Positions 43,911 through 63,725 of a stretch of DNA of 64,000 bases are shown here, piece after piece (positions within the stretch are counted from its first letter, which is position 1; the number at the start of each line of letters is the position of its first letter). The stretch comes from Rhodospirillales bacterium (GTDB lineage Bacteria; Pseudomonadota; Alphaproteobacteria; Rhodospirillales; JANQFP01): the NCBI GenBank assembly GCA_028277795.1, contig JANQFP010000052.1:1-64000 (forward strand). The letters are read 5' to 3'. The notes below the pieces were generated by a model. The model had not been told where the DNA came from and did not search any database. It saw only the letters and a list, made by a program, of their open reading frames with translations. Made by a program: the position numbers and the translations under genes.

Positions 43911-45065
43911 CTATGCATACGGGTCCGCGGCGTCGCGCAGGCCGTCGCCGAGGAAGTTGAAGGCGAGCACGGTGACGATCACCGGCACCATGGGCAGCAG
44001 CAGCCACGGGTACAGCGCCACCGCCTCGATGTTCTGGGCCTCGGTCAGCAGGACTCCCCAACTGGTCACCGGCGGGCGCAGCCCGAGGCCCAGGAAGCTG
44101 AGGGCCGTCTCCGCCAGGATCATGGACGGGATCGACAGGGTGGCCGAGGCGATCAGGTGGCTCATGAAGTTGGGCAGCAGGTGGCGGCCGATGATCCGCG
44201 ACGGCTTGGCCCCCATGAGCAGGGCGGCGGCGCAGTAGTCCTCCTCGCGCAGGGCGAGCAGCTTGGAGCGCACGGCGCGGGCCAATCCCGGCCAGTCGAG
44301 CAGCGCCAGGATGATGGTGATGCCGAAATAGACCAGGATGGGACTCCAGGTGACGGGCAGGGCCGCCGACAGGGCCATCCACAGGGGCAGCTCAGGCAGC
44401 GAGCGCAGGACCTCGATGATGCGCTGGACCACGTTGTCCACCCAGCCGCCGAAATAGCCGGCGACGCCGCCGATGGTGATGCCGAGGAGGAAGCTCAGGG
44501 ATATGCCGATCAGCCCCACGGTCAGCGAAATGCGGCCCCCGTAGACCAGGCGCGAGGCCATGTCGCGCCCCAGCCTGTCGGTGCCGAGGAGGAACAGGGT
44601 GCCGTTCTCGGCCGGGCAGAAAAGATGGAACCGGCCGGGGATCAGGCCCCAGAACTCGTAGGCGTCGCCCTGGCAGAAGAAGCGGATGCGCTGGATGTCG
44701 GTGCGGTCCTCCACGTAGCCGCGGGTGAGGGTGACCAGGTCCAGCTTCTGCTTCGTCCCGTAGACGAACGGGCCGATGAATTCTCCCTCGTGGAACATCC
44801 GGACCCGTTGCGGCGGGGCGTAGATGTGGCTGGCGTTGCGGGTGTGCAGGTCGTAGGGGACCAGGATCTCGACGAAGGCAATGGACGCGTAGCTGAACAG
44901 CAGGATGACGCCGGCCACCACGGCCAAATGGTGGCGTTTCAGCCGCCACCACATCATGCGCCACTGGGACGCCATGTAGAAGCGTTCCTGCTCCGGCGTC
45001 AGCCGCTCGATGGCATGGGGATCGAACGGCGCATCGGAAACGAAATGTGAGAGCCGTTCGGTCAT
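43911..45065 (-). CDS. Opp/Dpp-type ABC importer permease (OppC/DppC family)
   Basis: Second inner-membrane permease of the importer, 384 aa. A cytoplasmic N-terminal part (LTPEQERFYMASQWRMMWWR) precedes TM1; a long periplasmic insertion with FFCQGDAYEFWGLIPG follows; and the LGTDRLGRDMASRLVYG block that is diagnostic for DppC/OppC comes next. The ATPase-contact EAA loop is AALLMGAKPSRIIGRHLLPN. It ends with NFLGDGLRDAADP, as usual. ATG 45065 overlaps the DppB-like gene by ATGA. It is the last gene of the long operon. Confidence 0.93.
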   Translation of the reverse strand: MTERLSHFVSDAPFDPHAIERLTPEQERFYMASQWRMMWWRLKRHHLAVVAGVILLFSYASIAFVEILVPYDLHTRNASHIYAPPQRVRMFHEGEFIGPFVYGTKQKLDLVTLTRGYVEDRTDIQRIRFFCQGDAYEFWGLIPGRFHLFCPAENGTLFLLGTDRLGRDMASRLVYGGRISLTVGLIGISLSFLLGITIGGVAGYFGGWVDNVVQRIIEVLRSLPELPLWMALSAALPVTWSPILVYFGITIILALLDWPGLARAVRSKLLALREEDYCAAALLMGAKPSRIIGRHLLPNFMSHLIASATLSIPSMILAETALSFLGLGLRPPVTSWGVLLTEAQNIEAVALYPWLLLPMVPVIVTVLAFNFLGDGLRDAADPYA

Positions 45066-46060
45066 CGCTTGACCCCGCCCTCCAGCCGGATGCGCGGATC
45101 GAGGGCGGTCAGCAGCAGGTCCGACAGGAACATCCCCACCACCGTGAGCAGGGCCAGGAACATGAGGAACGAGCCGGCCAGGTACATGTCCTGGCTGCGC
45201 AGGGCGCTGAGCAGCATGGGTCCGGTGGTGGGCAGGGACATCACCGCCGAGACGATGACCGAGCCCGACACCACCTGGGGCAACAGGTTGCCGATGTCGG
45301 CGACGAACGGGTTGAGCGCCATGCGCAACGGGTACTTGAGCAGCAGCCTCCCCGGCGGCAGCCCCTTGGCCCGGCCGGTGACCACGTACTGCTTCTGCAG
45401 CTCGTCCAGCAGGTTGGCGCGCAGCCGGCGGATCATCCCGGCGGTGCCCGAGGTGCCGATGACCGCCACCGGCACCCAAAGATGCTCGAGGACCGACAGG
45501 ATCTTGTCCCACGACAGGGGCTGGTCGATGTACTCGGGCGCCATCAGGCCGCCGATCGTGGTCCCGAAGGCGACGTTGGCCAGATAGAGCAGGATCAGCG
45601 CCAGCAGGAAGTTGGGGGTGGCCAGGCCCAGAAAGCCGATGAAGGTCAGCCCGTGGTCGCCCCAACTGTACTGGTGGGTGGCCGAATAGACGCCGATGGG
45701 GAAGGACACCACGTAGATGAAGATGATGGTGGCTACGTTGAGGATCATGGACAGGAACAGGCGATCGCCCACCACCTCGGTGACCGGCAGGCTGTGCTCG
45801 AAGGAATAGCCGAGATCGCCCTGCAGGAAGCCGAACAGCCAGATGAAGTATTGCTCGATCATGGGCTTGTCGAGGCCGTACTGGCTGCGCAGGAACTCGA
45901 TCCGCTCCAGGCTCACCGCCTCGCCCTGGCTCTGCAGCTCGGCAATGTGGGTGGTCAGGTAGTCGCCCGGGGGAAGCTGGATGATGATGAAGACCAGGCC
46001 GCTGATCACCAGCAGGGTGACGATCATGGTCAGCAGCCGGCGCGCCATGTAATTCAGCAT
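45062..46060 (-). CDS. Opp/Dpp-type ABC importer permease (OppB/DppB family)
   Basis: First permease of the importer, 332 aa with six predicted helices. The N-terminal MLNYMARRLLTMIVTLLVIS and FIIIQLPPGDYLT, then GLDKPMIEQYFIWL and QGDLGYSFEHSLPV, are classic. The EAA loop region is VVTGRAKGLPPGRLLLKYPL. ATG 46060 lies ten bases after the end of the binding-protein gene. Together with the fused ATPase and the large binding protein it makes a full importer for peptides or oligosaccharides. Confidence 0.93.
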   Translation of the reverse strand: MLNYMARRLLTMIVTLLVISGLVFIIIQLPPGDYLTTHIAELQSQGEAVSLERIEFLRSQYGLDKPMIEQYFIWLFGFLQGDLGYSFEHSLPVTEVVGDRLFLSMILNVATIIFIYVVSFPIGVYSATHQYSWGDHGLTFIGFLGLATPNFLLALILLYLANVAFGTTIGGLMAPEYIDQPLSWDKILSVLEHLWVPVAVIGTSGTAGMIRRLRANLLDELQKQYVVTGRAKGLPPGRLLLKYPLRMALNPFVADIGNLLPQVVSGSVIVSAVMSLPTTGPMLLSALRSQDMYLAGSFLMFLALLTVVGMFLSDLLLTALDPRIRLEGGVKR

Positions 46061-46070
46061 GGCGACGGGT

Positions 46071-48013
46071 CTAGCGATCCGAGACGGGGATGCGGTGGCC
46101 GCCGGATCGTGCCTGGCGTCGTTCGGGGTCGGCGAACCAGAAGGTGTCGGGCCGGTACATGCCGAAATGGGCGCCCGGATCCCAGTTGTAGATGCCCTCC
46201 TCGGGCACGTTGCGCAGGGCGCGGTCCACCACCACCGGCTGACGGACACCGGACACTAAGCCGATGGTGAAGGCCTGCTCGGCGTTGATCTTCAGGATGT
46301 CGCGCCAGATGGCCTCGCGCTCCGAACGCTGGGCGGCATCGTGCCAGGCGGCGTAGAGCCGTTTCAGCTCCCGCGCCGTGTCCAGGTCCACTGCGGCGCC
46401 CGCGGTGCCCTTGGTCTCGAAATACTGGCCCCATTTGGGCCACTGGAGCTGCTGCTGGCTGGTCGGCGTCAGCTCGTGGGGACTGGTGTTCGCCGTCGGC
46501 ACTCCGTTCTCCAGGCCGACCCACAGGGACATCAGGGTGGAGCCGGCGAAGACCCGGTTGCGGAAGACCTCCCGTTGCAAAGGCTTGGTATGCAGTTTGA
46601 TGCCGGCCTTGATCCAGGTGTCGCGCACCAGGCCGAGGACGTCGGCCTGCTCGGCGTCCTCGCCCGCGGTCTCGACGATGAGCTCCATGGGCCGACCGTC
46701 GGGCAGCAGGCGGACTCCTTCGTCGTTGCGCGCCTTCAGGCCTAGCTTGTCGAGCAGGGCGTTGGCCTTCTTCAGATCGAAGGTGGCCCATTGGGTTCGG
46801 TATTCGGGCCGGAACAGCGGGCTCTCGGCCTGCACCGTGTTGTTGCCCTCGGTGGCCAGGCCGAAATACATGACCTGGTTGATTTCGGTGCGGTCGATGG
46901 CCAGCGACAGCGCGCGGCGGAAATCGGGCTCGCGGAACATGCGGCGCCATTCTGCGTCGGTCGTGTTGAGATTGGGATAAAGGGCCAGGTGGGCGCCCCT
47001 GGCCGTCTTCCACAGGCGCACCTGGAAGTCGCTGCGCGCCTCCGCCTGCTTGAGGAAGGTGACGTTGTTCAGGCTCAGGTGGCGGGCCTGCAGGTCCGAC
47101 TCGCCGGCGCCGGCCTTGGCCGGGATCAGGCGCGCGCTGGCGATGGTGAACACGACTCGGTCGATGTAGGGGAGCTGCTGCCCTTTCGAGTCGACCCGGT
47201 GGAAATAGGGGTTGCGCTCGAACACGAAACGGTCCGACGGCGGCGGCGTCACCAGCATCCACGGCTGCAGGGTCGGCAGGTCCGGGTTGTTATTCTTGTA
47301 CTGGTGGCTCTTACGGTAGTGCAGGGCTACCCAGTTGCGTTGATGCTCGGCCTCGGCCTCGGCGGCCAGCTCCTCGGCGGCCGCGTAGCGGGCATGGAAC
47401 TGCTTCATGTAGTGGGCCGGGCGGTAGATGTAGAGGGGCCTGGCGCCGGCCAGAAGGGGCAGGAAACCCGGGTTGCGGTGCGGCCACGTGTAGCGGACGG
47501 TGGTCTCGTCGACGACCTCGAACCGCGGCGGCTCCCCCTTGGCCAGGAGCTCCCGGGGCACGCCGCCCGGCGAGATGTCCTTGTTCATCACCACGTCTTC
47601 CCAGTAGTAGCGGAAGTCCTCGGCGGTGAACGGATGGCCGTCGGACCACTTGTGGCCCTTGCGCAGCTTCAGGGTGAAGACCTTCTGGTCCTCCACCTCG
47701 ACGGCCTCCAGGATGTCGGGAACCAGATCCAGGTGGCGGTCGTAGCCGACCAGGCGCGCATAGCCGTAGACCACCATGATGCGGGTGTCCTTGGACCGCC
47801 CCATCAGCATGTTGAGGGTGCCGCCGTGGTGGCCCGGCGACAGGCCGGGGCCCTTCAGGTCGGCGACGGCCGGCGTCCCCGGCAGGCGCCGGTCCAGGGG
47901 CGGCAGGTCGCCGGCGGTGACCCGTTTGGCCAGCAGCGGCGGGTCCGTGTAGGTGCCGGCCGTGGCCGGCGCCACCGCCGCCAGCATCACCAGCGCCGCG
48001 GCGGCCCAGGTCC

Positions 48014-48017
<4 letters not shown>
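46071..48017 (-). CDS. Opp/Dpp-type ABC importer substrate-binding protein (family 5)
   Basis: Periplasmic solute-binding protein of 648 aa, longer than DppA/OppA (~540). It has a signal peptide (VRTWAAAALVMLAAVAPATA) and SBP_bac_5 blocks: KLRKGHKWSDGHPFTAEDFR, YYWEDVVMNKDI, RRALSLAIDRTEINQVMYFG and FDLKKANALLDKLGLK. The length and layout resemble YejA-like or oligosaccharide-binding members. The start is GTG 48017, overlapping the ATPase stop as GTGA. The ligand is unknown; linkage to glycan genes makes an oligosaccharide or glycopeptide plausible. Confidence 0.9.
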
Positions 48018-49950
<1,933 letters not shown>

Positions 49951-49954
<4 letters not shown>

Positions 49955-50517
49955 GCCCGCCCCCGGTCGTCCGTCTCGACTACCAGTGAGATGCCCTCGC
50001 CCCCGACCACGTTACGATGCCGCGCCGGGGCCGGTGTGCCCGCCCCTCCGTTGGCGGCGATGCCCAGTGCCGCCAGGTTGTCGACGGTGGCGGCGTCGAG
50101 GGGCCGGCCGTTGGCGGCGGCCATGGCGCTCGCGCGCGCCGCCAGGGCGTCGAAGCCGGCGAGGCGCGAGTCCACGCTCAGCCGCCGGCCGCCGCCGGAC
50201 AGGGTCATCTGCATCCAGCCGTCGGTGCGGTCGCGACGGCTCGGGTAGTAGGTCAGGCGCACCTCCGTCAGCTCCTGCCAGGCGATGGGTCCGATGGCGC
50301 GCTCGCTGACCTCGATGCGGGTCAGGTGGCGGCCCACGGTACGCACGCCGTAGACGGCGAACACGACCACGGCGGCGGCCAGCAGCCAGGTGAAGACGGG
50401 GATGGTCGGCACCGCCAGCAGCGGGATGCCCGCCAACGCCATGCCGGCGCCCGCCCGCAGGTAATCGCGGACCACCGCACCCGCAGGATAGGCCAGGACG
50501 GTGGTCGGCGCACTCAT
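49951..50517 (-). CDS. small membrane protein with PH-like domain, unknown function
   Basis: A 188-aa protein. Two adjacent helices (GAGMALAGIPLLAVPTIPVF, then WLLAAAVVVFAVYGV) are followed by a cytoplasmic beta-rich part (TRIEVSERAIGPIAWQELTE, VRLTYYPSRRDRTDGWMQM) like bacterial PH domains. ATG 50517 overlaps the deacetylase stop (ATGA), and its own stop overlaps the ATPase start (GTGA), so it bridges the glycan and importer halves of the operon. I know of no defined role. Confidence 0.78.
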
Positions 50518-51266
50518 GGCCAGAACGCCTCGCGGGTCCCGGTCCACCGCCCCGCCGGGTGATCGCGGACGGCGGTCAGAAGGGTGCGCAGGAAGGTCCA
50601 GCACGCCTCGTCATGGTAGGCGTGGTGGGTCATCAGGCCGGTCGGCTCGCGGGCATCGGCCTCCCCCCGGCGGCGCGCCGCCAGGTGGTCGACCACCTGG
50701 TCCAGGGCCGCGTCCTCGCCAATGAAGCCGCCGCCCTGCCAGTCCATGATGTCCACGTGGACGTTGGTCTCGCTGACCCCGGCGGCGGGCTCCGCCGCGT
50801 CCCTCGGGCCCAGCGAGGACACGCCCCGCAGGCCGACCCCCGGCAGCTCCGGCAGCAGCGCCCGGTCGAACCGGTTCCAAGGCGGCACCAGGACGGGCAG
50901 GGCATGGTCGAAGCGGGCCGTGCGCCGCCATCCGTCGGCCAGCTCGGCCAGCATCACCTCGCGCGGCCGGTGGGGGCCGTACTCCTCCTGGCGGGAATCG
51001 TCCGGAGCGTGATTGGCATGGCCGAAACCGTGTTGGATCACGGCGGCACCGCGGTGGGCGGACAGACGCTGCCGCAGATCCTCGTCGGCCTGGCTCGGAA
51101 TCACCGCCAGGCCCACCGCCACCCCCGTCTCTTCGCTGATGCCGAGCAGCCGCTCGAGGGCCGGCGTCACCGTGGTCGCGTCATCGTCCCGCCACCACGC
51201 CGTGGCCGTGCGGCCCTCGCTCCCCCAGGCGCCCAGCTCGCGCGCAAAATCGTCCCAGTTCGCCAT
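50514..51266 (-). CDS. NodB-like polysaccharide deacetylase family protein
   Basis: A 250-aa predicted carbohydrate deacetylase without a signal peptide, so probably cytosolic. The metal/catalytic acids are likely in AWWRDDDATTVTPAL, and the metal histidines in VIQHGFGHANHAPDD. A later conserved THHAYHDEACWTF would supply the second catalytic His. ATG 51266 (MANWDDFAREL) was chosen for the AGGTG just ahead of it; a longer start at 51308 would overlap the upstream gene. It is 28 bases after a glycosyltransferase, in the same operon. Confidence 0.85.
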   Translation of the reverse strand: MANWDDFARELGAWGSEGRTATAWWRDDDATTVTPALERLLGISEETGVAVGLAVIPSQADEDLRQRLSAHRGAAVIQHGFGHANHAPDDSRQEEYGPHRPREVMLAELADGWRRTARFDHALPVLVPPWNRFDRALLPELPGVGLRGVSSLGPRDAAEPAAGVSETNVHVDIMDWQGGGFIGEDAALDQVVDHLAARRRGEADAREPTGLMTHHAYHDEACWTFLRTLLTAVRDHPAGRWTGTREAFWP

Positions 51267-51294
51267 TCCGCACCTGCCGATCCGGGCCCCGGCG

Positions 51295-52443
51295 TCACGG
51301 GGCGTCACCCGCCGCCAGGGCGGCGACCAGACGCGCCGTCGTGGCGGCCCCCGAGAAATCGATCCCGGAGTCGCTCGGCGGCGGTTCAGTCAACGCCTGG
51401 TCGACGGCGTTTGCCAGTGTCTGAGGCGTGAGGTCGGCCGCCTCCACCAGGCGGATCAGGTTGCGGCGGGCCAGCAGGCGGGCCCGGAAGGTCTGTTCGC
51501 TTTCCTCCCATTCCTCGAACGGGACGATTACGGCGCGCGTGTTGGCCGATAGGACGTCCATCGTCGTATTATACCCACCCTGGGATATGGAGAGATCACA
51601 GTTCCGTAACAATATCGCGAAATCTGACCGCATGCCCTCGACGGTGATGCCCGGCGGCGCGGCCGCGGTGATCTCGGCGAGCACGTCGGCCGGCAGGTTG
51701 GGGCCGCACAGCAGCCGCCACACCTTGTCTGCCGCCCGGGTCATGGCGCGGGCCTCCAGGGCGGCGCGCAGCAAGGGGGCGCCGGTGCGGCCACCGCCCA
51801 CCGAAACGATGACCTCGCCGCGGCCGGCCTCGGCCCAGTCCGGTATGTCGTGCGATTCCACCACGTACCCGGTATAGCGGACCAAGTGACGCACCGCGTC
51901 CATCGCCGGGAAGGTGGCCTCGAAGGGAATCAGCGACGGATCCCCGTGGACCAGCACCGCGTCGAAGCGGCTGAGGGCGGTGTCCACCATTTCCGGGACC
52001 CGCTTGCTCTTGATCACCAGCACGTCGCGCACCGAGGATGCGATGCGCGGTCGCCGCTCGGCGGCACGCGCCGCGTCGAGCAGGGGCAGCAGCTCGAACC
52101 GGAACTTGCGGCGGCCGAAGGGAAACAGCTCGACCAGCACCACATCCGGCTGGAAGGCCTCGAACTCGGCGAGCAGCCGGGCCATGCGGCCGTCGCGGAA
52201 GGCGTCGTCGATGGGCGTCCCGTCCTCGTCCAACAGCACCCGGAAGCTGGCGTCGGCTGCGTGCACGGGAGGCAGATAGGTGCGGGTGCAGCCGGCGAAA
52301 TCGGCGCCCCGATCCTCGATGCCGCCGAGCACCACGTTGACCGCCAGGCCCTCGGCGGCCATGGCGCGGGCCACGGTGGCCGCGCGGCGGACGTGACCGA
52401 TGCCGAACAGATGCTGGGCGTAGAACAGGACCCGCTTGGTCAC
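51295..52443 (-). CDS. GT-B glycosyltransferase of the FGxGHxRR type (COG4671-like)
   Basis: A 382-aa glycosyltransferase related to MurG and GT28 enzymes. The N-terminal loop is FYAQHLFGIGHVRRAATVAR, and the donor-binding C-terminal part is CDLSISQGGYNTTMDVLSAN followed by VPFEEWEESEQTFRARLL. The same two blocks occur in the operon's first gene (55420-56643), so the two are paralogues. The start GTG 52443 overlaps the phosphatase stop (GTGA). Acceptor and sugar unknown. Confidence 0.85.
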   Translation of the reverse strand: MTKRVLFYAQHLFGIGHVRRAATVARAMAAEGLAVNVVLGGIEDRGADFAGCTRTYLPPVHAADASFRVLLDEDGTPIDDAFRDGRMARLLAEFEAFQPDVVLVELFPFGRRKFRFELLPLLDAARAAERRPRIASSVRDVLVIKSKRVPEMVDTALSRFDAVLVHGDPSLIPFEATFPAMDAVRHLVRYTGYVVESHDIPDWAEAGRGEVIVSVGGGRTGAPLLRAALEARAMTRAADKVWRLLCGPNLPADVLAEITAAAPPGITVEGMRSDFAILLRNCDLSISQGGYNTTMDVLSANTRAVIVPFEEWEESEQTFRARLLARRNLIRLVEAADLTPQTLANAVDQALTEPPPSDSGIDFSGAATTARLVAALAAGDAP

Positions 52444-53042
52444 GATGCCGCCTCCACAGGTTCCAGGGGGATGTTGAGCTGCTCCGTGTGGGGCACGCCG
52501 TCGCCGTCGACGCGGAACAGGTGGGCGACGCCGCTCTTGATCATCTTGGTCGGCGGTTTGTCGGTCATGTCCCAGCCGGAGGCCAGGGCGTAGATGGCGC
52601 GGATCACCGCGTGGTGGGCCACCGCGGCGGTCGCCAAGCCGCCGCGCCCGACCCGCTCGAGCCACGGTCGGACGCGCCGCTGGACGGCCCGCGGGCTCTC
52701 CCCGCCGGGGGGCTGGAAGTCGAGGCCGCGCCGCTCGGTGGCCGCCATCTCCTCGCCCAGCTCGGCGCGCAACTCCTCGAGCAGCCGCCCCTCCCACCGG
52801 CCGTAGTCCATCTCCGCCAGGGTCGGCTCCAGCTCCGGCTCCAGGCCCATGAGCCGGGCCGTCTCCCGGGCCCGTTGCAGGGGGCTGCAGACCCAGCGGT
52901 AGTCCGCGAAGGCCGCCGGCACCGTCCACCGCCGGGCCGCCGCCCGGCCGCGCTCGTTGAGGGGCACGTCGGTGCGCCCCTGGATGCGCCCTTCGTCGTT
53001 CCACGCGGTGGGGGCGTGGCGGACCAGCAGCAGGGGGGTCAT
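52440..53042 (-). CDS. histidine phosphatase (phosphoglycerate mutase-like) family protein
   Basis: A 200-aa phosphatase of the branch with a phospho-histidine intermediate. The catalytic RHG-type motif is LLVRHAPTAWNDEGRIQGRT, with Ala in place of Gly after the His. The second Arg lies in CSPLQRARETARLMG, the acid in LAEMDYGRWEG, and the second His in AAVAHHAVIRAIYAL. Overlaps with both neighbours (ATGA and GTGA) place it inside glycan synthesis, where it might dephosphorylate a sugar phosphate; that is inference. Confidence 0.88.
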   Translation of the reverse strand: MTPLLLVRHAPTAWNDEGRIQGRTDVPLNERGRAAARRWTVPAAFADYRWVCSPLQRARETARLMGLEPELEPTLAEMDYGRWEGRLLEELRAELGEEMAATERRGLDFQPPGGESPRAVQRRVRPWLERVGRGGLATAAVAHHAVIRAIYALASGWDMTDKPPTKMIKSGVAHLFRVDGDGVPHTEQLNIPLEPVEAAS

Positions 53043-54166
53043 GCCGCCAGCCTCTCCAGGGCGGCATCGAGCGTCCGCGATGCGGCGCCGATGTCGTGGT
53101 CGCGGGCGGCCCGTGCCCGTGCCGCGTTGCCCATGGCGCGCCGCCCCGGGAGGTCTTCCAGCAGCCCGGCCACCGCAGATGCCAGGGCGGACGCATTGCC
53201 GGCCGGGACCAGCCGGCCGGTGGTTCCGTCGGCGATCAGCTCGGCCACGCCCCCGCTGCGGCCGGCCACCACCGGCAACCCGGCCGCCTGCGCCTCCAGC
53301 AGGGCCATGCCGTAGGCTTCGTTGACCGCCGGCCACACGTAGAGGTCGGCCGAGGCGTAGAGCCCGGGCAGGGCGTCCGGCTGCTGGCGGCCGAGCCACG
53401 CCACCCGGTCGCCGAGGCCGCCGAGGGCGTCGGCCACCTCGCCGTGGGCGGGGCCGTCGCCGGCCACCAGGAGCTGCCACGGGTGGCCGAGGATGCGTTG
53501 CAGCGCGGGGCCGAGAACCCGGTAGGACGCCACCTTGTCGCCGCCCCGCATCATGGCCACGGCCAGCAGCCAGGGGCGGTCGGGATCGAGGCCATGGCGG
53601 CGCGCCCACCCGGCGCGGTCGCGGCGGGCCGATGCGTACGGCGCCGTGTCGAGGAAGGGCTTCAGGGGCACCAGGCGGGACGGATCGCGCATCAGGGCGC
53701 GCACGCACGGCGCATCGGCGGGGTTGATGCCGAAGACCACGTCGGCGCCGGCGATGGCGTCGGCGGCGGCGGCATATGCGGTGGCCCATGGCCCGTCCCG
53801 CTGCTTGGGCGCGTGGGAGGCCTCGGCCACCGCGTAGGGGATGCCGAGGGCGCGCGACACCGCCGGACCCAGCCAATCGGGCGCCTTGTGGTAGAGGTGG
53901 TAGGTGAACCACAATCGGGGCCGCTCGCAACCCGCGTCGTGGTAGTGGCGGATCAGCCGTTCGGCCAGGCGCTGGCCGACGGCGCCGAGGCGCCGCTGCC
54001 GGTCGCCGTTTCCGTCTCCGTCGTAGCTGCGGAAGCGGGACGCCAGGTCGACGGAATGGCCGGCCGCCCGCAACGCCGCCACCAGCAGGTTGGCCATGCG
54101 CCGGTCCCCCGACGGTTGCGGGTGGTCGGGCGGCTTCATGGGCGCGTAGAAGGCCAGCCGCATCAC
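53039..54166 (-). CDS. GT4-family glycosyltransferase
   Basis: A 375-aa retaining GT-B enzyme. The N-terminal part has LAFYAPMKPPDHPQPSGDRR, typical for GT4 acceptor loops. The C-terminal donor site shows LLVAGDGPAHGEVADAL, the WLGRQQPDALPGLYASADLY block, and the E-x7-E pattern in PAVNEAYGMALLEAQAAGLP. The start GTG 54166 overlaps the previous gene's TGA. It probably acts in series with the other three glycosyltransferases of the operon. Confidence 0.9.
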   Translation of the reverse strand: MMRLAFYAPMKPPDHPQPSGDRRMANLLVAALRAAGHSVDLASRFRSYDGDGNGDRQRRLGAVGQRLAERLIRHYHDAGCERPRLWFTYHLYHKAPDWLGPAVSRALGIPYAVAEASHAPKQRDGPWATAYAAAADAIAGADVVFGINPADAPCVRALMRDPSRLVPLKPFLDTAPYASARRDRAGWARRHGLDPDRPWLLAVAMMRGGDKVASYRVLGPALQRILGHPWQLLVAGDGPAHGEVADALGGLGDRVAWLGRQQPDALPGLYASADLYVWPAVNEAYGMALLEAQAAGLPVVAGRSGGVAELIADGTTGRLVPAGNASALASAVAGLLEDLPGRRAMGNAARARAARDHDIGAASRTLDAALERLAA

Positions 54167-55404
54167 CCGCCATCCCCGCCCAGGGACTGGAACCGTGCGG
54201 CCAGGCGGTCGATGCCGGCCTCCATGGTGAAGACGCTGCGGGTGCGCTCCTGCCCGGCCCGGCCGAGGCGGTCGCGCAGCGGCGGGTCACCGATGAGCCG
54301 CCGCAACGCGGCGGCCAGGGCGGCCGGGTCGTCCGGCGGGACCAGGAGGCCGGTCTCACCGTCGTCGATGAGCTCCGGGATGGCCGAGACCCGCGTCGAC
54401 AGGCAGGCGAGCCCCTGGCTCTGGGCCTCCATGAGCACGTTGGGCAGGCCGTCGCGGTCGCCGTCGGCGGCGACCCGGCAGGGCAGGACGAACAGGTCGG
54501 CCTCCCGGTAGCGGCTCAGCACCGCCTCCTGGGGCTGGGCGCCGGTCCAAACCACCCGGTCATCGATCCCTGCGGCCCTGGCCTGCTCGCGCAGGCGGCG
54601 CATCAGGGGGCCGCCACCCACGTGCACCAGCCGCCAATGCAGGTCGGCCGGCAACCGGGCCAGGGCGTCGATCAGCCCCGTGAACCCTTTCTTTTCCACC
54701 GCCCGTCCGACGGCAAGGAGCACGACCGGATCGTCGGGGTCGCGACCGTCCCGCGGCGGGCGGGACTCCGGCGGCGGCGGAAAGCGGGCCGCGTCGAGCC
54801 CGTGGTACAGCAGCTCCACCCGCTGGCCGTTGGGTGACAGCGAGGCCAGGTGCTCGGCGTTGGCCCGGGTGCAGGTGACCAGCCACCGGCAGGCGGCCAG
54901 CTTCTCCGCCTTCTCCCAGTCCGGCGTCGTCCATACGTCCTTGGCGTGGGCCGAACAGCTCCACGGGAGGTCGCGGATCATCGCCGCATAGCGCGCCACC
55001 GAGGCCGGCGTGTGCAGGAAATGGGCGTGGATCCAGCGGATTTCGGGGGGCATCTCGCGGGCCAGGACCAGGGCTTGGCCGAAGCGGCGGATGCGGTTGG
55101 GCGTGGGGTCGCGCCTGAGGTCGCGGAGCCAGGCGGCGCGGGCCGGCCGGTACCCCGGCCGCCGCCGCACCGCGCGCCAGCCGCGGACCACGCGCACCGG
55201 CTCCTGGTACAGGTATTCGGGCAGGTAGGTGACGGGGGCGCGGATCTCCCGGTGCACGGGATGGACGTGGCGGTCGGTCGGGTGGCGCAGCGAGAACAGG
55301 CGCAGGTCCAGCCCCCGCTGCTCCAGGGCGCGGATCTCCTGGGCGATGAAGGTCTCCGACAGGCGCGGATAGCCCTTGAGGACGACGGCGACGGCGGCGC
55401 TCAC
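54163..55404 (-). CDS. GT4-family glycosyltransferase
   Basis: A 413-aa GT-B enzyme like exopolysaccharide and lipid-sugar transferases. LKGYPRLSETFIAQEIRALE at the N-terminus is a widespread GT4 opening; AHFLHTPASVARYAAM and SAHAKDVWTT line the acceptor side. The donor side has VELLYHGLDAARFPP, GRAVEKKGFTGLIDAL, and RDGLPNVLMEAQSQGLACLS (E-x7-E). The start is GTG 55404, 15 bases after the operon's first gene. Confidence 0.91.
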   Translation of the reverse strand: MSAAVAVVLKGYPRLSETFIAQEIRALEQRGLDLRLFSLRHPTDRHVHPVHREIRAPVTYLPEYLYQEPVRVVRGWRAVRRRPGYRPARAAWLRDLRRDPTPNRIRRFGQALVLAREMPPEIRWIHAHFLHTPASVARYAAMIRDLPWSCSAHAKDVWTTPDWEKAEKLAACRWLVTCTRANAEHLASLSPNGQRVELLYHGLDAARFPPPPESRPPRDGRDPDDPVVLLAVGRAVEKKGFTGLIDALARLPADLHWRLVHVGGGPLMRRLREQARAAGIDDRVVWTGAQPQEAVLSRYREADLFVLPCRVAADGDRDGLPNVLMEAQSQGLACLSTRVSAIPELIDDGETGLLVPPDDPAALAAALRRLIGDPPLRDRLGRAGQERTRSVFTMEAGIDRLAARFQSLGGDGG

Positions 55405-55419
55405 GTCACGGGGTCTGGC

Positions 55420-56643
55420 TCAACTGATGACCGACAGGCGCGTCGGCGTCTGCGGGATGGCGCTCAGCCACTGGTCCACCATGCCGTTGATCACCGACAG
55501 GCCGTCGAGCAGACCCGGGGCCTGCACCGACGACGGCCGTTGCTGATGGGGCAGCTCGTGCAGCACCGCGGCCATGTGGCGGGGGTCGCGCTCACCGTCG
55601 TCGGTCAGCATGCGGACCAGGCCAATGGTGCTGGCCCGCTCGGCGCGGATGAACTGCTCCAGCCGCGGCACCGTGCGGGGAACGATCAGGCTCGGCTTGT
55701 CGAACGACAGGATCTCGCAGAACGTGTTGTAGCCGCCCATGGCGACCACGCCGGCGGCGTTGGATTCGAGGTGCTCCACGTGGGCGTCGAAGGTGATCAC
55801 GTGGACCCGTTCCAAGGCCGTGGCCCGTTGCCGGAACTCGGCCTGCAGGTCGCGGTGCATGAACGGCCCCAGCACCAGCAGCGCCGCCCATGGAATGGAC
55901 GGGTCGTGCTCGTAGGCGCGCAGCACCCAATCGACCAGGCCGGCGCCGTCGCCGCCGCCGCCGGGGGTGACCAGGATGTAGGGCTCGCCGCCGAAGCGCT
56001 CGACCACGTCCACGGACTTGGCGGGGGTCGGTGACGTGCGGCGCAGATACCCGGTGAACCGGGTTTTGTCGCGGACCGCGTCGGGGACCGGCACGCCGGC
56101 CAGGGGATCGCAGATCTCTGGCAGGCCGTAGACCCAGATATGGTCGTAGAGGTCGTTCAGCGCCGGCAGGACGTTCTTGCGCTCCCATTCGGCGGCCAGG
56201 GTCTCGGCGTCGTCCATGACGTCGCGCAGGCCCAGGATCAGCACCGTGCCCGCGGACTTGAGCATGGTCAGGGTCTCGAGCACCTCGCCGCGCAGGCCCA
56301 GGGGCTCCTTGTCGACCAGGAACACGTCGGGCTCGAAGGCCTCGGCGGTGCGGCGCACCAGGGCCGCGCGGATGGCCACCAGGTCCTCGATTCCGATGTC
56401 CAGGCTCAGCGACGTGTAGTCGGCGTCGCGCCGCTTGATGGCGCCGGGCACGCGCACGAAGTCCACCCGCGCCCGGAAGTCGAAGCTGCCGATGATAGGC
56501 GAGCCCGAGATGATGAGGACCGACAGGTCCTTGCGGTGATCGACCAGGGAATGGGCAATGGTCCGGCACCGCCGCAGGTGGCCCAGGCCGAAGGAGTCGT
56601 GGCTGTAAATCAACAGCCTGGCGTGACCCCGCCGTCGCGACAT
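55420..56643 (-). CDS. GT-B glycosyltransferase of the FGxGHxRR type (COG4671-like), first gene of the operon
   Basis: A 407-aa predicted glycosyltransferase. The N-terminal loop reads LLIYSHDSFGLGHLRRCRTI, and the C-terminal donor site GVVAMGGYNTFCEILSFDKP, then SLIVPRTVPRLEQFIRAE. The mid part has ILVTPGGGGDGAGLVDWVL. It is paralogous to the enzyme at 51295-52443. ATG 56643 has GGGAG about 7 bases ahead. Being first in an eleven-gene transcript, its upstream 100 bases, shared with the divergent pseudo-ABC gene, should hold the operon's promoter. Confidence 0.86.
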   Translation of the reverse strand: MSRRRGHARLLIYSHDSFGLGHLRRCRTIAHSLVDHRKDLSVLIISGSPIIGSFDFRARVDFVRVPGAIKRRDADYTSLSLDIGIEDLVAIRAALVRRTAEAFEPDVFLVDKEPLGLRGEVLETLTMLKSAGTVLILGLRDVMDDAETLAAEWERKNVLPALNDLYDHIWVYGLPEICDPLAGVPVPDAVRDKTRFTGYLRRTSPTPAKSVDVVERFGGEPYILVTPGGGGDGAGLVDWVLRAYEHDPSIPWAALLVLGPFMHRDLQAEFRQRATALERVHVITFDAHVEHLESNAAGVVAMGGYNTFCEILSFDKPSLIVPRTVPRLEQFIRAERASTIGLVRMLTDDGERDPRHMAAVLHELPHQQRPSSVQAPGLLDGLSVINGMVDQWLSAIPQTPTRLSVIS

Positions 56644-56743: not shown

Positions 56744-59407
56744 ATGGCCCCGGGGGCAGGGGACGTGGAGCCGTCGATCTTCAAATACATCCTGCGCTAC
56801 AGCCTGCGCCAGCAGATCACCCTGCTGATCATGACCGGCGTGTCGTTCCCCTTCCTCTACTACTCCCTGGACCTGCCCAAGCGCATCATCAACCAGGCCA
56901 TCGGCGGCCAGGATTTCCCGCAGATGGTATTCGGCATGCCCTTCGAGCAGGTGCCGTTCCTGATGCTGCTGTGCACCGTGTTCCTGGCCCTGGTGCTCAT
57001 CAACGGCGGCTTCAAGTACTGGATCAACGTCTACAAGGGGCAGGTCGGCGAGCGCATGCTGCGGCGCCTGCGCTACCAGTTGTTCGCGCGGGTCCTGCGC
57101 TTCCCGCTGCCCCAGTTCCGCAAGATGTCCCAGGGCGAGATCATCGCCATGATCACCACCGAGGTGGAGCCCCTGGGCGGGTTCATCGGCGACGCCTTCG
57201 CCCAGCCGGCCTACCGGGGCGGCACCCTGATCACCATCCTCGCCTTCATGTTCGTCCAGGACTGGATTCTGGGGCTCGCCGCCATCGCCCTCTATCCGGT
57301 GCAGATGTACCTGATCCCCAAGCTCCAGAAGCGGGTCAACGACCTGGCCAAGCAGCGGGTGCGGACGGTGCGCAAGCTGTCGGAGCGCATCGGCGAGAGC
57401 GTCTCCAGCATCCACGAGATCCACGCCCACGACACCTCGGAGCTGGAGCGGGCCGACTTCGCCCACCGGGTCGGCGCCATCTTCGAGATCCGGTTCCGCA
57501 TCTACAAGCTGAAGTTCTTCATCAAGTTCCTCAACAACTTCATCGCCATGGTGACGCCGTTCTTCTTCTTCTCGGTGGGCGGCTACCTGGTCATCGAGGG
57601 TGACCTCACCTTCGGCGCCCTGGTCGCGGTGCTGGCGGCCTACAAGGACCTGTCGGCGCCGTGGAAGGAACTGCTCATGTACTACCAGCAGATGGAGGAC
57701 GCGCGGATCAAGTACGACCTGCTGACCGAGCAGTTCGAACCCGCCGACATGCTGGACGAGGCCTTGCAGCAGCCGGAACCGGGTCCGGTGCCGCCGCTGG
57801 ACGGCACGGTGGTCGCCGTCAACGTCACCCTGGAGGAGGAGGCCGGCATCAAGGTCATCGACGGGGCCAGCTTCAGCTTCGCCGCCGACAGCCGGGTGGC
57901 CATCGTCGGCCCCAGCGGCTCCGGCCACGAGGGCGTGGCCAAGGTGCTGGCGCGGCTCCTGCGTCCCACCTCGGGCACGCTGCGCATCGGCGAGCACAAC
58001 CTGGCCGCCCTGTCGGAGGCCGCCGCGGGACGGCGCATCGCCTACGCCGGCCCCACGGCCGCCCTGTTCTCCGGCTCCATCGCCGACAACCTGCTGTATG
58101 GCCTGAAGCACCGCCCCGTCGCCGAGGCGGAGCGCGACGCCGAGGCGGCCCGGGGGCGCGAACGCTTTGTGAGCGAGGCCGAGGCCGCGGGCAACACCAC
58201 GGCCGACCTGGAGGCCGACTGGATCGACTACGAGGCGGCCGGGGTGTCCGGCCCCGAAGCCCTCGACGAGCGGGTGCAGGAGGTGCTGTCCATCACCGAC
58301 CTGGAGGCCGACGTCTACGACTTCGGCCTGCAAGGCGCCATCGACCCGGCGGCGTTCCCCGAGCTGGCGGCGGGGATCCTGGAGGCGCGGTCGGTGCTGC
58401 GCGGGCGCCTCGCCGATCCGGCGCTCGCGGACCTGGTCGAGCCCTTCGACCGGGCGCGTTACAACAGCAACATGTCGGTGGCGGAGAACCTGCTGTTCGG
58501 CACTCCCATCGGCGACGCCTTCGACCTGGAGCACCTGGGCGAGAACCCCTACGTGCTGTCGGTGCTGGGCAAGGCCGGGCTGGCCGAGGACTTCCTGACC
58601 ACCGGCCTCAAGGTGGCGACCATCACCGTCGAGATGTTCCAGGGACTGCCGCCGGAGCACGAGTTCTTCGACCGCTACAGCTTCATCAGCGCCGACGAGC
58701 TGCCCGACTACCAGCACTGCGTGCGGCGTTACGAGGCCGGCGGGCTGGACGCCCTCGAGGAGACGGACCGGGCGACCCTGACGTCGCTGCCGTTCAAGCT
58801 CATCCCGGCCCGGCACCGCCTCGGTGTCATCGACGAGCCCATGCAGGAGCGGCTCCTGGCGGCCCGTCGCTTGTTCGCCGAGGAGCTGCCGGAGAGCCTG
58901 AAGGGCTCGGTGGCCTTCTTCGACGACACCCAGTACAACGCCGCCGCCGCGGTCCAGGACAACATCCTGTTCGGCAAGATCGTGTACGGTCGCCAGACCG
59001 GCTTGCGCGAGGTGGGCCGCCTGATCGGCGACGTGGTCCGGGAGCTCGATCTGAGGCGCACCATCGTCGCGGCGGGGCTGGCCACGCAGGTGGGCGTCGG
59101 CGGCAGCCGCCTGTCGGTGGCCCAGCGCCAGAAGGTGGTGCTCGCCCGGTGCGTGCTGAAGCGGCCCGACATCCTGATCGTCGATCAGGCGACGGCGGCC
59201 ATGGACCCCGTCACCCACAACAAGATCATGGAGAACCTGTTCGAGGAATGCCGGGGGCGGGGCCTGGTCTGGGTGCTCGGCGCCGCCGAACAGGCGCGGC
59301 GGTTCGACCGGGCGGTGGTCATGGAGGGCGGCAAGGTGGTGGAGCAGGGGCCGGTGGGCGAGCTGGACCAGCCGGGATCGCTGCTGCGCCGGCTGGCGGC
59401 GGAATAA
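56744..59407 (+). CDS. ABC-exporter-like protein with degenerate, expanded nucleotide-binding domain
   Basis: An 887-aa protein. Residues 1-310 form an ABC-exporter transmembrane domain (KRIINQAIGGQDFP, RLRYQLFARVLRFPLPQF, GEIIAMITTEVEPLGGFIGD). The NBD that follows has every catalytic motif altered: Walker A GPSGSGHE (389-396) has His395 for Lys; the Q-loop region YAGPTAALF lacks Gln; the signature is LSVAQ (790-794); Walker B ILIVDQ has Gln815 for Glu; and the H-loop reads GAAEQ. About 280 extra residues lie between the Q-loop and signature and repeat an ENLLFG-like element (449-453, 581-586, 739-744). ATP hydrolysis is therefore doubtful; a structural, regulatory or flippase-like role is possible. 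ATG 56744 is used; GTG 56765, after AGGGG, is an alternative. It is the first gene of a three-gene unit. Confidence 0.85.
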   Translation: MAPGAGDVEPSIFKYILRYSLRQQITLLIMTGVSFPFLYYSLDLPKRIINQAIGGQDFPQMVFGMPFEQVPFLMLLCTVFLALVLINGGFKYWINVYKGQVGERMLRRLRYQLFARVLRFPLPQFRKMSQGEIIAMITTEVEPLGGFIGDAFAQPAYRGGTLITILAFMFVQDWILGLAAIALYPVQMYLIPKLQKRVNDLAKQRVRTVRKLSERIGESVSSIHEIHAHDTSELERADFAHRVGAIFEIRFRIYKLKFFIKFLNNFIAMVTPFFFFSVGGYLVIEGDLTFGALVAVLAAYKDLSAPWKELLMYYQQMEDARIKYDLLTEQFEPADMLDEALQQPEPGPVPPLDGTVVAVNVTLEEEAGIKVIDGASFSFAADSRVAIVGPSGSGHEGVAKVLARLLRPTSGTLRIGEHNLAALSEAAAGRRIAYAGPTAALFSGSIADNLLYGLKHRPVAEAERDAEAARGRERFVSEAEAAGNTTADLEADWIDYEAAGVSGPEALDERVQEVLSITDLEADVYDFGLQGAIDPAAFPELAAGILEARSVLRGRLADPALADLVEPFDRARYNSNMSVAENLLFGTPIGDAFDLEHLGENPYVLSVLGKAGLAEDFLTTGLKVATITVEMFQGLPPEHEFFDRYSFISADELPDYQHCVRRYEAGGLDALEETDRATLTSLPFKLIPARHRLGVIDEPMQERLLAARRLFAEELPESLKGSVAFFDDTQYNAAAAVQDNILFGKIVYGRQTGLREVGRLIGDVVRELDLRRTIVAAGLATQVGVGGSRLSVAQRQKVVLARCVLKRPDILIVDQATAAMDPVTHNKIMENLFEECRGRGLVWVLGAAEQARRFDRAVVMEGGKVVEQGPVGELDQPGSLLRRLAAE

Positions 59408-59425
59408 GGGTAAGGAGGACTTCCC

Positions 59426-59923
59426 GTGGAATACGGCGACGCGGTCACGGTCTTGCGCAGGATGCCCCTGTTCTCCAGCCTCGATCCGGGGCAGCTCAAG
59501 CTGCTCGCCTTCACCTGCGACTACCTGTCCTTCGAGGACGGGGAGGCCTTGTTCCATGCCGGCGACCCGGCGGATTCGGCCTACGTGATCGACGAGGGCG
59601 AGGCGGTCATCCGTGCCGATACCGACAATGGCGAGGTCACCGTCGGCACCCTGGGCAAGCACGAGATGTTCGGCGAGCTGGCCATCTTCCGCAACGCGTC
59701 GCGCATCGCCACCATCCGCGCCCGCGGCCAGCTCAAGGTGCTGCGAATCGCCGGCGACATCTTCCTCAAGCTGGTGACCCAGAACCCCGACGCGGCCCTC
59801 GGCGTCATGCGGGCGCTCAGCGACAAGATCGCCCGTGCCCAGGACAGCTTCGAGGCCATGGAAGCCGAGCTGCGCCGTCTGCAGGCAGCCGCCGGCGGCG
59901 TTGCGGACGGCGCCGACAAATAA
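59426..59923 (+). CDS. cyclic nucleotide-binding domain protein
   Basis: A 165-aa soluble protein made of one cNMP-binding domain (CRP/PKA type) and a C-terminal helix, with no DNA-binding or catalytic part. LRRMPLFSSLDPGQLKLLAF begins the domain; the phosphate-binding cassette is MFGELAIFRNASRIATIRA, with Glu84 and Arg93 at the positions that hold ribose and phosphate, so binding of cAMP or cGMP is credible. The end (ARAQDSFEAMEAELRRLQA) is probably a coiled coil. The GTG start has AAGGAGG ahead of it. It lies 18 bases after the pseudo-ABC gene and 98 before the permease, and may regulate either. Confidence 0.92.
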   Translation: MEYGDAVTVLRRMPLFSSLDPGQLKLLAFTCDYLSFEDGEALFHAGDPADSAYVIDEGEAVIRADTDNGEVTVGTLGKHEMFGELAIFRNASRIATIRARGQLKVLRIAGDIFLKLVTQNPDAALGVMRALSDKIARAQDSFEAMEAELRRLQAAAGGVADGADK

Positions 59924-60021
59924 CCTCCCACCCCCGGCGGGGTGACGGCGCCCCGTCGGCGGACCATAATGGGGCGTCCCGAGGGGGGGCTTGTCCGGTT
60001 TATCGCGCCGACTGCTTGGCC

Positions 60022-61881
60022 ATGCCCGAGATCGCCATGTTCATCGATCCGGACCTGCAGATGTGGGTGACCTTCGCCCTCATCGTCGGCGCCTTGGTCC
60101 TGTTCGCCCTGGAGCTGGCGCCGATGGAGGTCATTTCCATCGGCATCGTCTGCGCGCTGCTCCTGTTCTTCCACCTCTACCCGGTGCCCGACGGCTTCGG
60201 CGGCAACCGCATGGACGCGGCGCATATCCTGAGGGGATTCGCCAATCCCGCCCTCATCACGGTGCTGTCCCTGCTGGTCATCGGACAGGGCCTGGTGCGC
60301 ACGGGCATCCTCGACCGGGGCGCGCGCTTCGTGCTCAAGGCGGGCGGCGGCAGCCTGTTCCTGTCCACCACCCTGGTCCTGGTGGTGGTGATGGTTGTGA
60401 GCGCCTTTCTCAACAACATCCCGGTGGTGGTCATCTTCATCCCCATCATGCAGGCGCTGGCCACCCGCTTCGGCCGCTCGGCGAGCAAGGTGATGATCCC
60501 GCTGAGCTTCGCCGCCGTGCTCGGCGGCATGACCACCCTGGTGGGCTCGAGCACCAACCTCCTGGTCAACAGCGCCCTGATCGAGATGCGGCTCGAACCG
60601 TTCGGGTTCTTCGACTTCTCGGTGCCCGGCATGGTGATGGCCGCGGCCGGGCTGGTCTACCTGATGGTGGCGGCTCCCGCCCTGCTGCCGGATCGCGAGA
60701 CCATCGCCGAGACCCTGCAGGGGGGAGGCCTGCAGTTCATCGCCCAGATCCCGGTGACCGAGGAGTCGCACCTGGTCGGGGCCACGGCCCCGGTCGGCGT
60801 GTTCACCCAGTTGATCGACATGACCGTGCGCATGGTGCAGCGGGGGGAGGAGGCGTTCATGCCCCCCTTCGAGGGCGTGGTCCTGCAGCCCGGCGACATG
60901 GTGGTGGTGGCGGCCACGCGATCGGTCCTCAAGAAGGCCCTGGAGACGTACCCCGGGCTGCTCTATCCGGACCTCCGCGACGGCCGCGTCACCCACGAGG
61001 ACGGCGGTCAGCCCTGGCACGGGGACGAGCGGGTGCTGGCCGAGGTGCTGGTGGCGCCGGCATCGCGGCTGATCGGCCGCACGCTGCGGCAGATCGCCTT
61101 CCACTACAAGACCCGCTGCATCGTCCTCGGCATCCGCCGGCGGTCCCGCATGATCCGCAGCCGCATGACCGACATCCGGCTGGCCGACGGCGACGTGCTT
61201 CTGGTCCAGGGCCAGCCCGACGACGTGAACGCGCTGAAGCTGCACCGGGACGTGGTGCTGATCGAATCCTCGGCCGAGGAGCTGCCGGTGCTGGCCCGCG
61301 GCAGCGTGGCCGGTCTGATCTTCCTCGCCGTCATCCTGTTCGCCGCCACCGGGCTGGTGCCCATCGTCGTCGCCGCATTGGTTGGCGCCGCCGTCATGGT
61401 GGCCACCGGGGTGCTCAACGTCTCCCAGGCGGCGCGGGCCGTCGATCCCAAGATCGTCACTACCATCGGCGCCGCCCTGGCCATGGGGGCGGCACTCCAG
61501 GAGACCGGTGGCGCCGCCTTCATCGCAGCCGGCTTGGTCAGGACCCTGATGGATTTCGGCCCCGCGATTGTGTTGTCGGCCTTCTTCCTGGTGGTGGCGG
61601 GCCTGTCCAACGTGGTCAGCACCAAGGCCACCGCGGTGCTGTTCACGCCCATCGCCGTCGACATCGCCCGCCAGCTCGGGGTGTCGCCGGAGGCCTTCGC
61701 CGTTGCCGTGGTGTTTGCCGCCAACTGCTCCTTCGCGTCCCCCATCGGCTACCAGACCAATCTGCTGGTGCTGGGGCCGGGGGCCTACCGGTTCCTCGAC
61801 TTCTCCCGCGTCGGCATTCCTTTGATGGTCTTCCTGTGGATCGTCTTCACGCTGTTCGCCCCGTGGTGGTACGGGTTTTAA
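60022..61881 (+). CDS. SLC13-family permease with RCK_C (TrkA-C) domains
   Basis: A 619-aa polytopic transporter of the ion transporter superfamily. The N-half has FLNNIPVVVIFIPIMQALA and the GSSTNLLVNSAL loop; the C-half has VVSTKATAVLFTPIAVDI and CSFASPIGYQTNLLVLGPG, the paired SNT-like loops that bind sodium and substrate. Between the halves are one or two soluble RCK_C domains (VVLQPGDMVVVAATRSVLKK; TDIRLADGDVLLVQGQPDDV). Relatives move sulfate, dicarboxylates or other anions; the cargo is unknown. ATG 60022 is used, ATG 60037 also fits. It is last in the unit with the pseudo-ABC and cNMP-binding proteins. Confidence 0.9.
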   Translation: MPEIAMFIDPDLQMWVTFALIVGALVLFALELAPMEVISIGIVCALLLFFHLYPVPDGFGGNRMDAAHILRGFANPALITVLSLLVIGQGLVRTGILDRGARFVLKAGGGSLFLSTTLVLVVVMVVSAFLNNIPVVVIFIPIMQALATRFGRSASKVMIPLSFAAVLGGMTTLVGSSTNLLVNSALIEMRLEPFGFFDFSVPGMVMAAAGLVYLMVAAPALLPDRETIAETLQGGGLQFIAQIPVTEESHLVGATAPVGVFTQLIDMTVRMVQRGEEAFMPPFEGVVLQPGDMVVVAATRSVLKKALETYPGLLYPDLRDGRVTHEDGGQPWHGDERVLAEVLVAPASRLIGRTLRQIAFHYKTRCIVLGIRRRSRMIRSRMTDIRLADGDVLLVQGQPDDVNALKLHRDVVLIESSAEELPVLARGSVAGLIFLAVILFAATGLVPIVVAALVGAAVMVATGVLNVSQAARAVDPKIVTTIGAALAMGAALQETGGAAFIAAGLVRTLMDFGPAIVLSAFFLVVAGLSNVVSTKATAVLFTPIAVDIARQLGVSPEAFAVAVVFAANCSFASPIGYQTNLLVLGPGAYRFLDFSRVGIPLMVFLWIVFTLFAPWWYGF

Positions 61882-63329: not shown

Positions 63330-63725
63330 TCAGGGGCGCAGGGTGTCGAGGCGGGCGTGGGACGAGCGGAAGTGGTCGAGGAACCAGGTCTTGAGGCGCG
63401 CCGCCAGCAGATCCTCCACCGAGTCGAAATCGCCGTCCTGGTGGCGCAGGCTGAGGGCACGGATCTCGTCGAGCAGGCGCTCGTGCTCGGCCTTGTGGTC
63501 CTCGTAGCCGCCGAACCCGTGATCGCGCATCAGCTTCTCCTCGAGGGAGAAGTGCGCCGCCACCATGTCGTGGAGGGCCTCGAAGCGGTCGGTCACCCGG
63601 GGCTCGGTGCCCTTGCGGCAGACGTCGTCGCACAGGTCGTTGAGGACCTCGATCAGACGTTCGTGTTCGTGGTCCAAATACTGGATGCCGGTCGAGAACG
63701 TGTCCGACCATTCGATCAGGGACAT
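63330..63725 (-). CDS. bacteriohemerythrin
   Basis: A 131-aa four-helix oxygen-binding protein with a non-heme di-iron site. The ligand pattern is complete: IQYLDHEHERLIEVLND (His of helix A), AAHFSLEEKLMRDHG (HxxxE), EDHKAEHERLLDEI (HxxxH) and FLDHFRSSHARLDTL (HxxxxD). It probably delivers or senses oxygen in the cytoplasm. It is a single-domain form without chemotaxis or diguanylate cyclase parts. ATG 63725 follows GAAGGG. It lies 25 bases upstream of the propeller gene and may be cotranscribed with it. Confidence 0.94.
   Translation of the reverse strand: MSLIEWSDTFSTGIQYLDHEHERLIEVLNDLCDDVCRKGTEPRVTDRFEALHDMVAAHFSLEEKLMRDHGFGGYEDHKAEHERLLDEIRALSLRHQDGDFDSVEDLLAARLKTWFLDHFRSSHARLDTLRP

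Follow-up and report, generated by a model that had tools for sequence, protein, structure and literature searches.

Transport powered by ATP is what defines an ABC exporter, and the locus described here raises the question of whether the exporter fold can operate, or be gated, with no hydrolysis of ATP. It raises a second one as well, namely whether cAMP or cGMP can control surface-glycan assembly directly at the membrane and not via transcription. In the window, which is the whole 64,000-nucleotide stretch of contig JANQFP010000052.1 (Rhodospirillales bacterium) that was analysed, a gene for an 887-residue ABC protein is followed by genes for a small cyclic-nucleotide-binding domain (CNBD) protein and a permease, and the original prediction, made from the letters alone, took the three for one unit built around an ABC protein with altered catalytic motifs. 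Our analysis shows that the ABC protein is one member of a widespread and hitherto undescribed bacterial family that conserves the membrane part and drops the catalytic residues; its features and neighbours are collected in Table 1.

Table 1. Features of the ABC protein, its partner and the surrounding genes (window positions; loci are counted among the 80 named loci described in the text)
Feature	Position	Strand	Remarks
Peptide-type ABC importer	43911..49954	-	at least one component in 51/80 loci
Importer: second permease	43911-45065	-	
Importer: first permease	45062-46249	-	
Importer: substrate-binding protein	46071-48290	-	
Importer: fused DppD-DppF ATPase	48014-49954	-	
Small membrane protein c9	49951..50604	-	no Pfam match; 30/80 loci
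Deacetylase-like neighbour	50514..51308	-	no Pfam match; Azospirillum counterpart annotated polysaccharide deacetylase; 38/80 loci
Second GT28/MurG-like glycosyltransferase, GTb	51295..52446	-	PF04101; 53/80 loci
Histidine phosphatase	52440..53042	-	PF00300; 40/80 loci
Second GT4 glycosyltransferase	53039..54166	-	PF13692; 52/80 loci
GT4 glycosyltransferase	54163..55404	-	PF00534; 56/80 loci
GT28/MurG-like glycosyltransferase, GTa	55420..56643	-	weak PF04101 (below cut-off), TIGR00661; 53/80 loci
Pseudo-ABC exporter, 887 aa	56744..59407	+	exporter-type membrane domain with split, degenerate NBD
Membrane domain, residues 12-330	56777..57733	+	PF00664, predicted helices, family conservation
Walker A remnant GPSGSGHE, residues 389-396	57908..57931	+	GPSGAGKS in controls; catalytic Lys replaced by His395
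Repeat unit B1, residues 430-457	58031..58114	+	usual Q-loop segment ...FSGSIADNLLYGLKHR; hhalign
Q-loop position	58052..58054	+	Gln replaced by Pro437
Family-specific insertion, residues 470-735	58151..58948	+	all-helical, pLDDT 93.3, absent from canonical exporters
Repeat unit B2, residues 545-610	58376..58573	+	LEAR...EPFD..RYN..MSVAENLLFG; hhalign, alignment
Repeat unit B3, residues 702-767	58847..59044	+	LAAR...VAFFD..QYN..AAVQDNILFG; hhalign, alignment
Signature remnant LSVAQ, residues 790-794	59111..59125	+	canonical LSGGQ
Walker B remnant ILIVDQ, residues 810-815	59171..59188	+	DE changed to DQ; catalytic Glu replaced by Gln815
H-loop position	59279..59281	+	His replaced by Gly846
Stand-alone CNBD, 165 aa	59426..59923	+	cNMP_binding (Pfam), cassette GELAIFRNASRIA intact
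SLC13/CitMHS permease with TrkA_C domains, 619 aa	60022..61881	+	PF03600, PF02080; 1/80 loci

An exporter fold with a degenerate nucleotide-binding domain

The 887-aa protein has the fold of a type IV ABC exporter; the original prediction had noted its exporter-type membrane domain. Pfam places ABC_membrane (PF00664) at residues 48-298 (E 2.9e-28) and finds ABC_tran (PF00005) in two pieces (E 1.3e-16), because about 270 residues sit between the Q-loop and the signature; both families, the pair by which the exporter fold is recognized, score above their cut-offs. The best NCBIfam match is MsbA_lipidA, at 204.9 bits far below the cut-off of 602 for MsbA membership (TIGR02203). The original prediction had called for a structure model, and in the full-length AF2 model (mean pLDDT 86.9, confident through the insert) the membrane fold and the core of the nucleotide-binding domain (NBD) match MsbA, TmrAB, PCAT1 and TM287/288 in the PDB, only ABC exporters appearing among the best 50 Foldseek matches. 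The membrane domain is also the best conserved part of the family protein, with a mean column identity of 0.67 over 99 aligned homologues.

Motifs were called by aligning three canonical exporters from the window's own genome into the same columns as the window protein, and five features were scored: Walker A Lys with the following Ser/Thr, Q-loop Gln, signature Gly, Walker B Glu and H-loop His. All five are canonical in each of the three ordinary exporters, which lack the insert, and none is canonical in the window protein; every one of the five changes predicted from the letters proved correct. Close homologues with intact motifs had been named as the sign of a merely local decay. The 99 homologues come from Alpha-, Beta- and Gammaproteobacteria, and most share 41-63% identity with the window protein; not one of them combines all five features and 63 have one or none, so the motif set of an ATP-driven type IV exporter is found neither in the window protein nor in any of these relatives. 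Walker A Lys occurs in 52/99 (Arg in 28/99) and the next Ser/Thr in 25/99; Q-loop Gln, signature Gly and H-loop His are present in 21, 11 and 21 of the 99, respectively; the Walker B Asp is kept in 22/99 (Asn in 61/99) and the Walker B Glu in 51/99. What is mostly retained is the signature Leu/Ser, the adjoining Q-R-Q and the D-loop Asp, and the Walker A glycines are conserved. We infer from the lost residues that ATP hydrolysis is absent. Since about half of the family still has the Lys and about half the Glu, and most members keep the signature and D-loop residues just named, binding of ATP is possible, and some family members may bind it or even hydrolyse it slowly.

The changed motifs had been seen in the original prediction, but the main feature of the protein, a family-wide insert of about 270 residues in the NBD, had been overlooked. 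Modelled alone, the insert gives a pLDDT of 93.3. Profile-profile comparison with hhalign relates its units B2 (545-660) and B3 (700-800) to each other with an E-value of 5e-16 and both to B1 (415-545), with E-values of 7e-7 (B2) and 1.6e-6 (B3); the insert is therefore akin to the Q-loop/helical-subdomain segment that precedes it, and duplication of that segment would be the simplest account of its origin. N582 in B2 and N740 and G744 in B3 are invariant in all 99 homologues, and W493 is found in 98. The insert has no match in Pfam, none in a Foldseek search of its fold against the PDB (best E 0.5, TM ~0.1) and no significant match in the PDB by sequence or profile.

Distribution of the family

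Family members are present in 17 of 40 related genomes. A contig scan gave at least 377 confirmed relatives, of which the best 80 (L038-L117) are the named loci counted below; they include Azospirillum, Tistrella, Nisaea, Thalassobaculum, Thalassospira, Inquilinus and Roseibium and also the Beta- and Gammaproteobacteria Rhodoferax, Marinobacterium and Zooshikella. There are 270 plasmid records with the family, mostly from Rhizobium and Sinorhizobium, and 32 of 398 genomes sampled evenly across the phylum gave a match at a strict threshold, a count that takes in membrane-only and divergent forms. The family thus occurs in well-studied and tractable bacteria: in Rhizobium johnstonii 3841, Azospirillum and Sinorhizobium its ABC members are annotated merely as 'ABC transporter'. 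Literature searches, with most subscription journals outside their scope, found this combination of features and the insert nowhere described, and searches on the fused architecture, on pseudo-ABC exporters in such a context and on CNBD-ABC exporters returned nothing relevant. Each ingredient has precedents on its own: NBDs with degenerate motifs, CNBDs close to exporters, and ABC proteins with a regulatory role.

A conserved partner with a cyclic-nucleotide-binding domain

The 165-aa protein downstream matches cNMP_binding (PF00027) with an E-value of 6.7e-21 (74.5 bits against a cut-off of 27.5), and its phosphate cassette GELAIFRNASRIA retains the Gly-Glu and Arg, in agreement with its description as a free-standing CNBD with an intact cassette. 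The pattern GE..R.A is intact in 93 of 97 CNBDs of the family. The predicted linkage between the ABC and CNBD genes is likewise conserved: a CNBD was found in 75 of the 80 named loci, fused to the ABC protein in 11, directly downstream in 58 and elsewhere in the cluster in 6. The search gave no CNBD in the remaining 5, at least one of them (L078) being truncated by the end of its contig.

Fused and split forms fall into separate clades (parsimony needs 2 changes, the mean in shuffles that ignore relatedness being 21.7; branch support 0.998), and both subfamilies occur together in several genomes, that of the window included. Here the fused paralogue, L010, the one additional full-length member in the genome, is 53% identical to the window protein over its full length, carries the CNBD and a GGDEF-like domain at its C-terminus and retains GPGGGGKS and the Walker B Glu. 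The GGDEF-like domain is frequent in the fused form, with PF00990 matches in L010 and L062; in place of the catalytic GG[DE]EF motif the fused subfamily has sequences such as SVEFGI and EAEFGI. L010 (G000:C39) lies outside the glycosyltransferase cluster, next to what by eye is a RecO-like ORF.

A divergent gene cluster with glycosyltransferases

As to the neighbours, the original prediction held for the CNBD and failed for the permease; the conserved partners are instead the genes at 43911-56643, which lie on the minus strand, divergent from the ABC gene. Membership of this cluster was established by neighbour clustering and by direct searches at the 80 named loci. Besides the genes in Table 1, it contains a Methyltransf_17 protein in 26/80 loci. 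At least some glycosyltransferase lies near the ABC gene in 61 loci; the 19 loci in which none was matched include several that are truncated or of the fused clade. In 31 genomes, GTa and the ABC protein occur together in 11, the ABC protein alone in 3, GTa alone in 1 and neither in 16 (Fisher p 9e-5, ignoring relatedness of the genomes). At L131 a single genome has the fused paralogue side by side with the split pair and the complete transferase operon. The analysis identified no initiating transferase, no polymerase and no Wzx, so the assignment to a glycan is a conjecture.

Class III cyclases were found in 25 of the 80 loci (1.484 Mb in total), where 3.5 would be expected from the 2.38 per Mb of same-order relatives, a density that may be too low for rhizobia; the excess persists at 5 per Mb (Poisson p 3e-7, ignoring relatedness of the genomes). 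In R. johnstonii 3841 (L121) and Rhizobium sp. WSM4643 (L118) an adenylate/guanylate cyclase gene heads the cluster, in the order cyclase, importer, three glycosyltransferases, ABC, CNBD, and in L138 the order is ABC, CNBD, cyclase, importer. No cyclase of the window contig is among the matches listed.

Several further observations concern the surroundings of the cluster. An MBL-fold hydrolase (PF12706) lies beside it in 10/80 loci (L095, L105, L110, L114, L117 and five others); we conjecture that it is possibly a cyclic-nucleotide phosphodiesterase-like enzyme. In the window, translations read by eye resemble a bacteriohemerythrin (63330-63725, minus strand) and a cytochrome P460 (43112-43918, minus strand). 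In R. leguminosarum, pRL110056 ('O-antigen biosynthesis') is reported to be required for root colonisation (PMC11103875); the number would fit the family-bearing part of pRL11, and a link to the cluster is a lead only.

Comparison with known systems

The membrane fold and NBD core are shared with homodimeric type IV exporters such as MsbA and BmrA, which match in the PDB by sequence and by fold; unlike these, the window family has lost the catalytic motifs and has acquired an insert of about 270 aa and a CNBD partner. Degenerate NBD motifs are shared with the heterodimeric exporters TmrAB, TM287/288 and TAP, but these keep one canonical site and have no insert, whereas in four genome pairs of the window family (window/L010, L016/L031, L025/L032 and L021/L033) neither subfamily has a canonical site and the combination of one canonical with one degenerate half-transporter was not found. 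In SUR1, a non-transporting full ABCC protein with adenine-nucleotide sites that regulates K-ATP channels, an ABC fold likewise serves as a nucleotide-sensing regulator; in the window family, by comparison, sensing would fall to a CNBD, either fused or encoded separately, and the repeat insert lies in the NBD. A cyclic-nucleotide-type domain is also tied to ABC exporters in the bacteriocin-export CNBD proteins and NHLM exporters (TIGR03896, TIGR03796/7), but the window ABC protein scores only 179.7 bits against a cut-off of 853 for the NHLM exporters, the window CNBD 27.6 bits against 161 for TIGR03896, and the peptide-exporter context is absent.

The Sinorhizobium MsbA2 operon SMb21188-21191 combines an MsbA-like exporter with glycosyltransferases and has been proposed to serve the synthesis and export of a polysaccharide, and the passages on the operon mention no CNBD partner, unlike what is seen in the window family (PMC3687685). 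S. meliloti MsbA2 is not an already studied member of the family: it is SMb21191, at about 938 kb of pSymB according to the same paper, whereas in our searches the family member lies at about 842 kb. The latter (L120:13944-16710, S. meliloti 1021 pSymB, ~841.7-844.4 kb) is broken up between two reading frames; of the other S. meliloti records among the matches listed, most match in one piece.

Proposed role and alternatives

It is tentatively proposed, as a plausible reading of the sequences and gene neighbourhoods, that the window protein has an exporter fold, is deficient in ATP hydrolysis and, under the control of cNMP, gates one of the steps by which a surface glycan is assembled or exported. 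Together with the CNBD, the ABC protein would form a two-component regulated membrane protein, made in one piece in one ancient subfamily, in which the exporter-fold membrane domain has been retained, the NBD may have turned into a pseudo-ATPase and the repeat-built insert would enlarge the NBD helical subdomain into a platform for regulation or docking. The cAMP or cGMP bound by the CNBD would come from class III cyclases, whose genes often belong to the cluster, and the cNMP-bound CNBD would alter the state of the ABC/CNBD assembly and so control a late step, that is, the export or flipping of a cell-surface glycoconjugate or the recruitment of enzymes to it, the glycoconjugate being the product of the glycosyltransferases, the phosphatase and the deacetylase-like protein encoded alongside. 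We infer that gating by the cyclic nucleotide is direct, that the substrate is a glycan and that the insert has such a role. More doubtfully, the family as a whole may work without ATP hydrolysis, the former motor having become a cNMP-controlled gate or docking hub for glycan export and the NBD having been lost in places.

A serious rival, somewhat unlikely in our view, is an ABC exporter that remains active through a non-canonical cycle, using ATP at degenerate sites or as a heterodimer with the fused paralogue, in which hydrolysis would be slow or left to the partner and the CNBD would tune its rate. The conservation of the glycines in Walker A, of L-S and Q-R-Q at the signature and of the Asp in the D-loop fits such a cycle, but the rarity of the signature Gly, H-loop His and Q-loop Gln and the existence of NBD-less relatives argue against it. 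For the heterodimer speak the co-occurrence of the subfamilies, which in L131 sit on either side of a single glycosyltransferase operon, and the GPGGGGKS and Walker B Glu of L010, yet a complete partner is absent from all four same-genome pairs. Alternatively, by analogy with SUR1, the exporter fold might not transport at all and would serve as a scaffold that recruits glycosyltransferases or as a sensor that reports the cNMP state. The lost catalytic residues, the degenerate GGDEF domain added in the fused form and the modelled insert as a candidate docking surface are consistent with this; it is nevertheless improbable, given that the membrane domain is the best conserved part of the protein, which points to a membrane function beyond anchoring.

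Two further explanations were weighed against the gated exporter fold proposed above. According to one, the pseudo-ABC protein, the CNBD and the permease would form a single regulated transporter. The third gene does encode an ion-type permease, as predicted, with CitMHS (PF03600, E 1.7e-77, 261 bits against a cut-off of 31.9) and TrkA_C (PF02080, E 1.6e-20) matches and a subthreshold one to TIGR00785 (115 bits, cut-off 198.6); the three genes are co-directional (plus strand) with gaps of only 18 and 98 bases, and in the relatives L017 and L038 the permease gene likewise comes after that of the CNBD. However, this permease lies within 10 kb in only 1 of the 80 named loci (L038), besides the close relative L017, which leaves the three-gene unit unsupported, rules the permease out as a general part of it and makes a joint transporter highly improbable; the permease is mostly a bystander and no conserved part of the system. 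The other explanation, an ordinary MsbA-like exporter that is decaying locally as a pseudogene in progress, is suggested by the alteration of all five motifs in the window copy, but it can be considered refuted: the frame is open, the insert and the CNBD linkage are conserved, and the pattern extends over the 99 homologues, the family being degenerate throughout.

Membrane-only and divergent relatives

Proteins of 412-434 aa on Sulfitobacter and Roseobacter plasmids are 43-46% identical to the membrane domain and stop where the NBD would start; copper oxidase and copper-binding genes adjoin them. This membrane domain can therefore exist without any NBD. Two such proteins, L123:8773-10077 (Sulfitobacter dubius plasmid) and L124:8773-10011 (Roseobacter litoralis plasmid), sit in copper-oxidase/plastocyanin gene clusters, and L125, L126, L127 and L128 are further stand-alone, NBD-less exporter membrane domains. 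ORFs of this membrane-only sort occur in genomes G317, G397, G393 and G163; by eye, the ORFs flanking those of G317 and G397 resemble the same copper-type cluster. Conversely, L136:3434-6022 and L137:3039-6086 are divergent relatives that keep the insert repeats and have a very different membrane domain; the insert repeat of L136 reads YN..ENILFG, and the next gene in L137 encodes an MBL-fold hydrolase domain.
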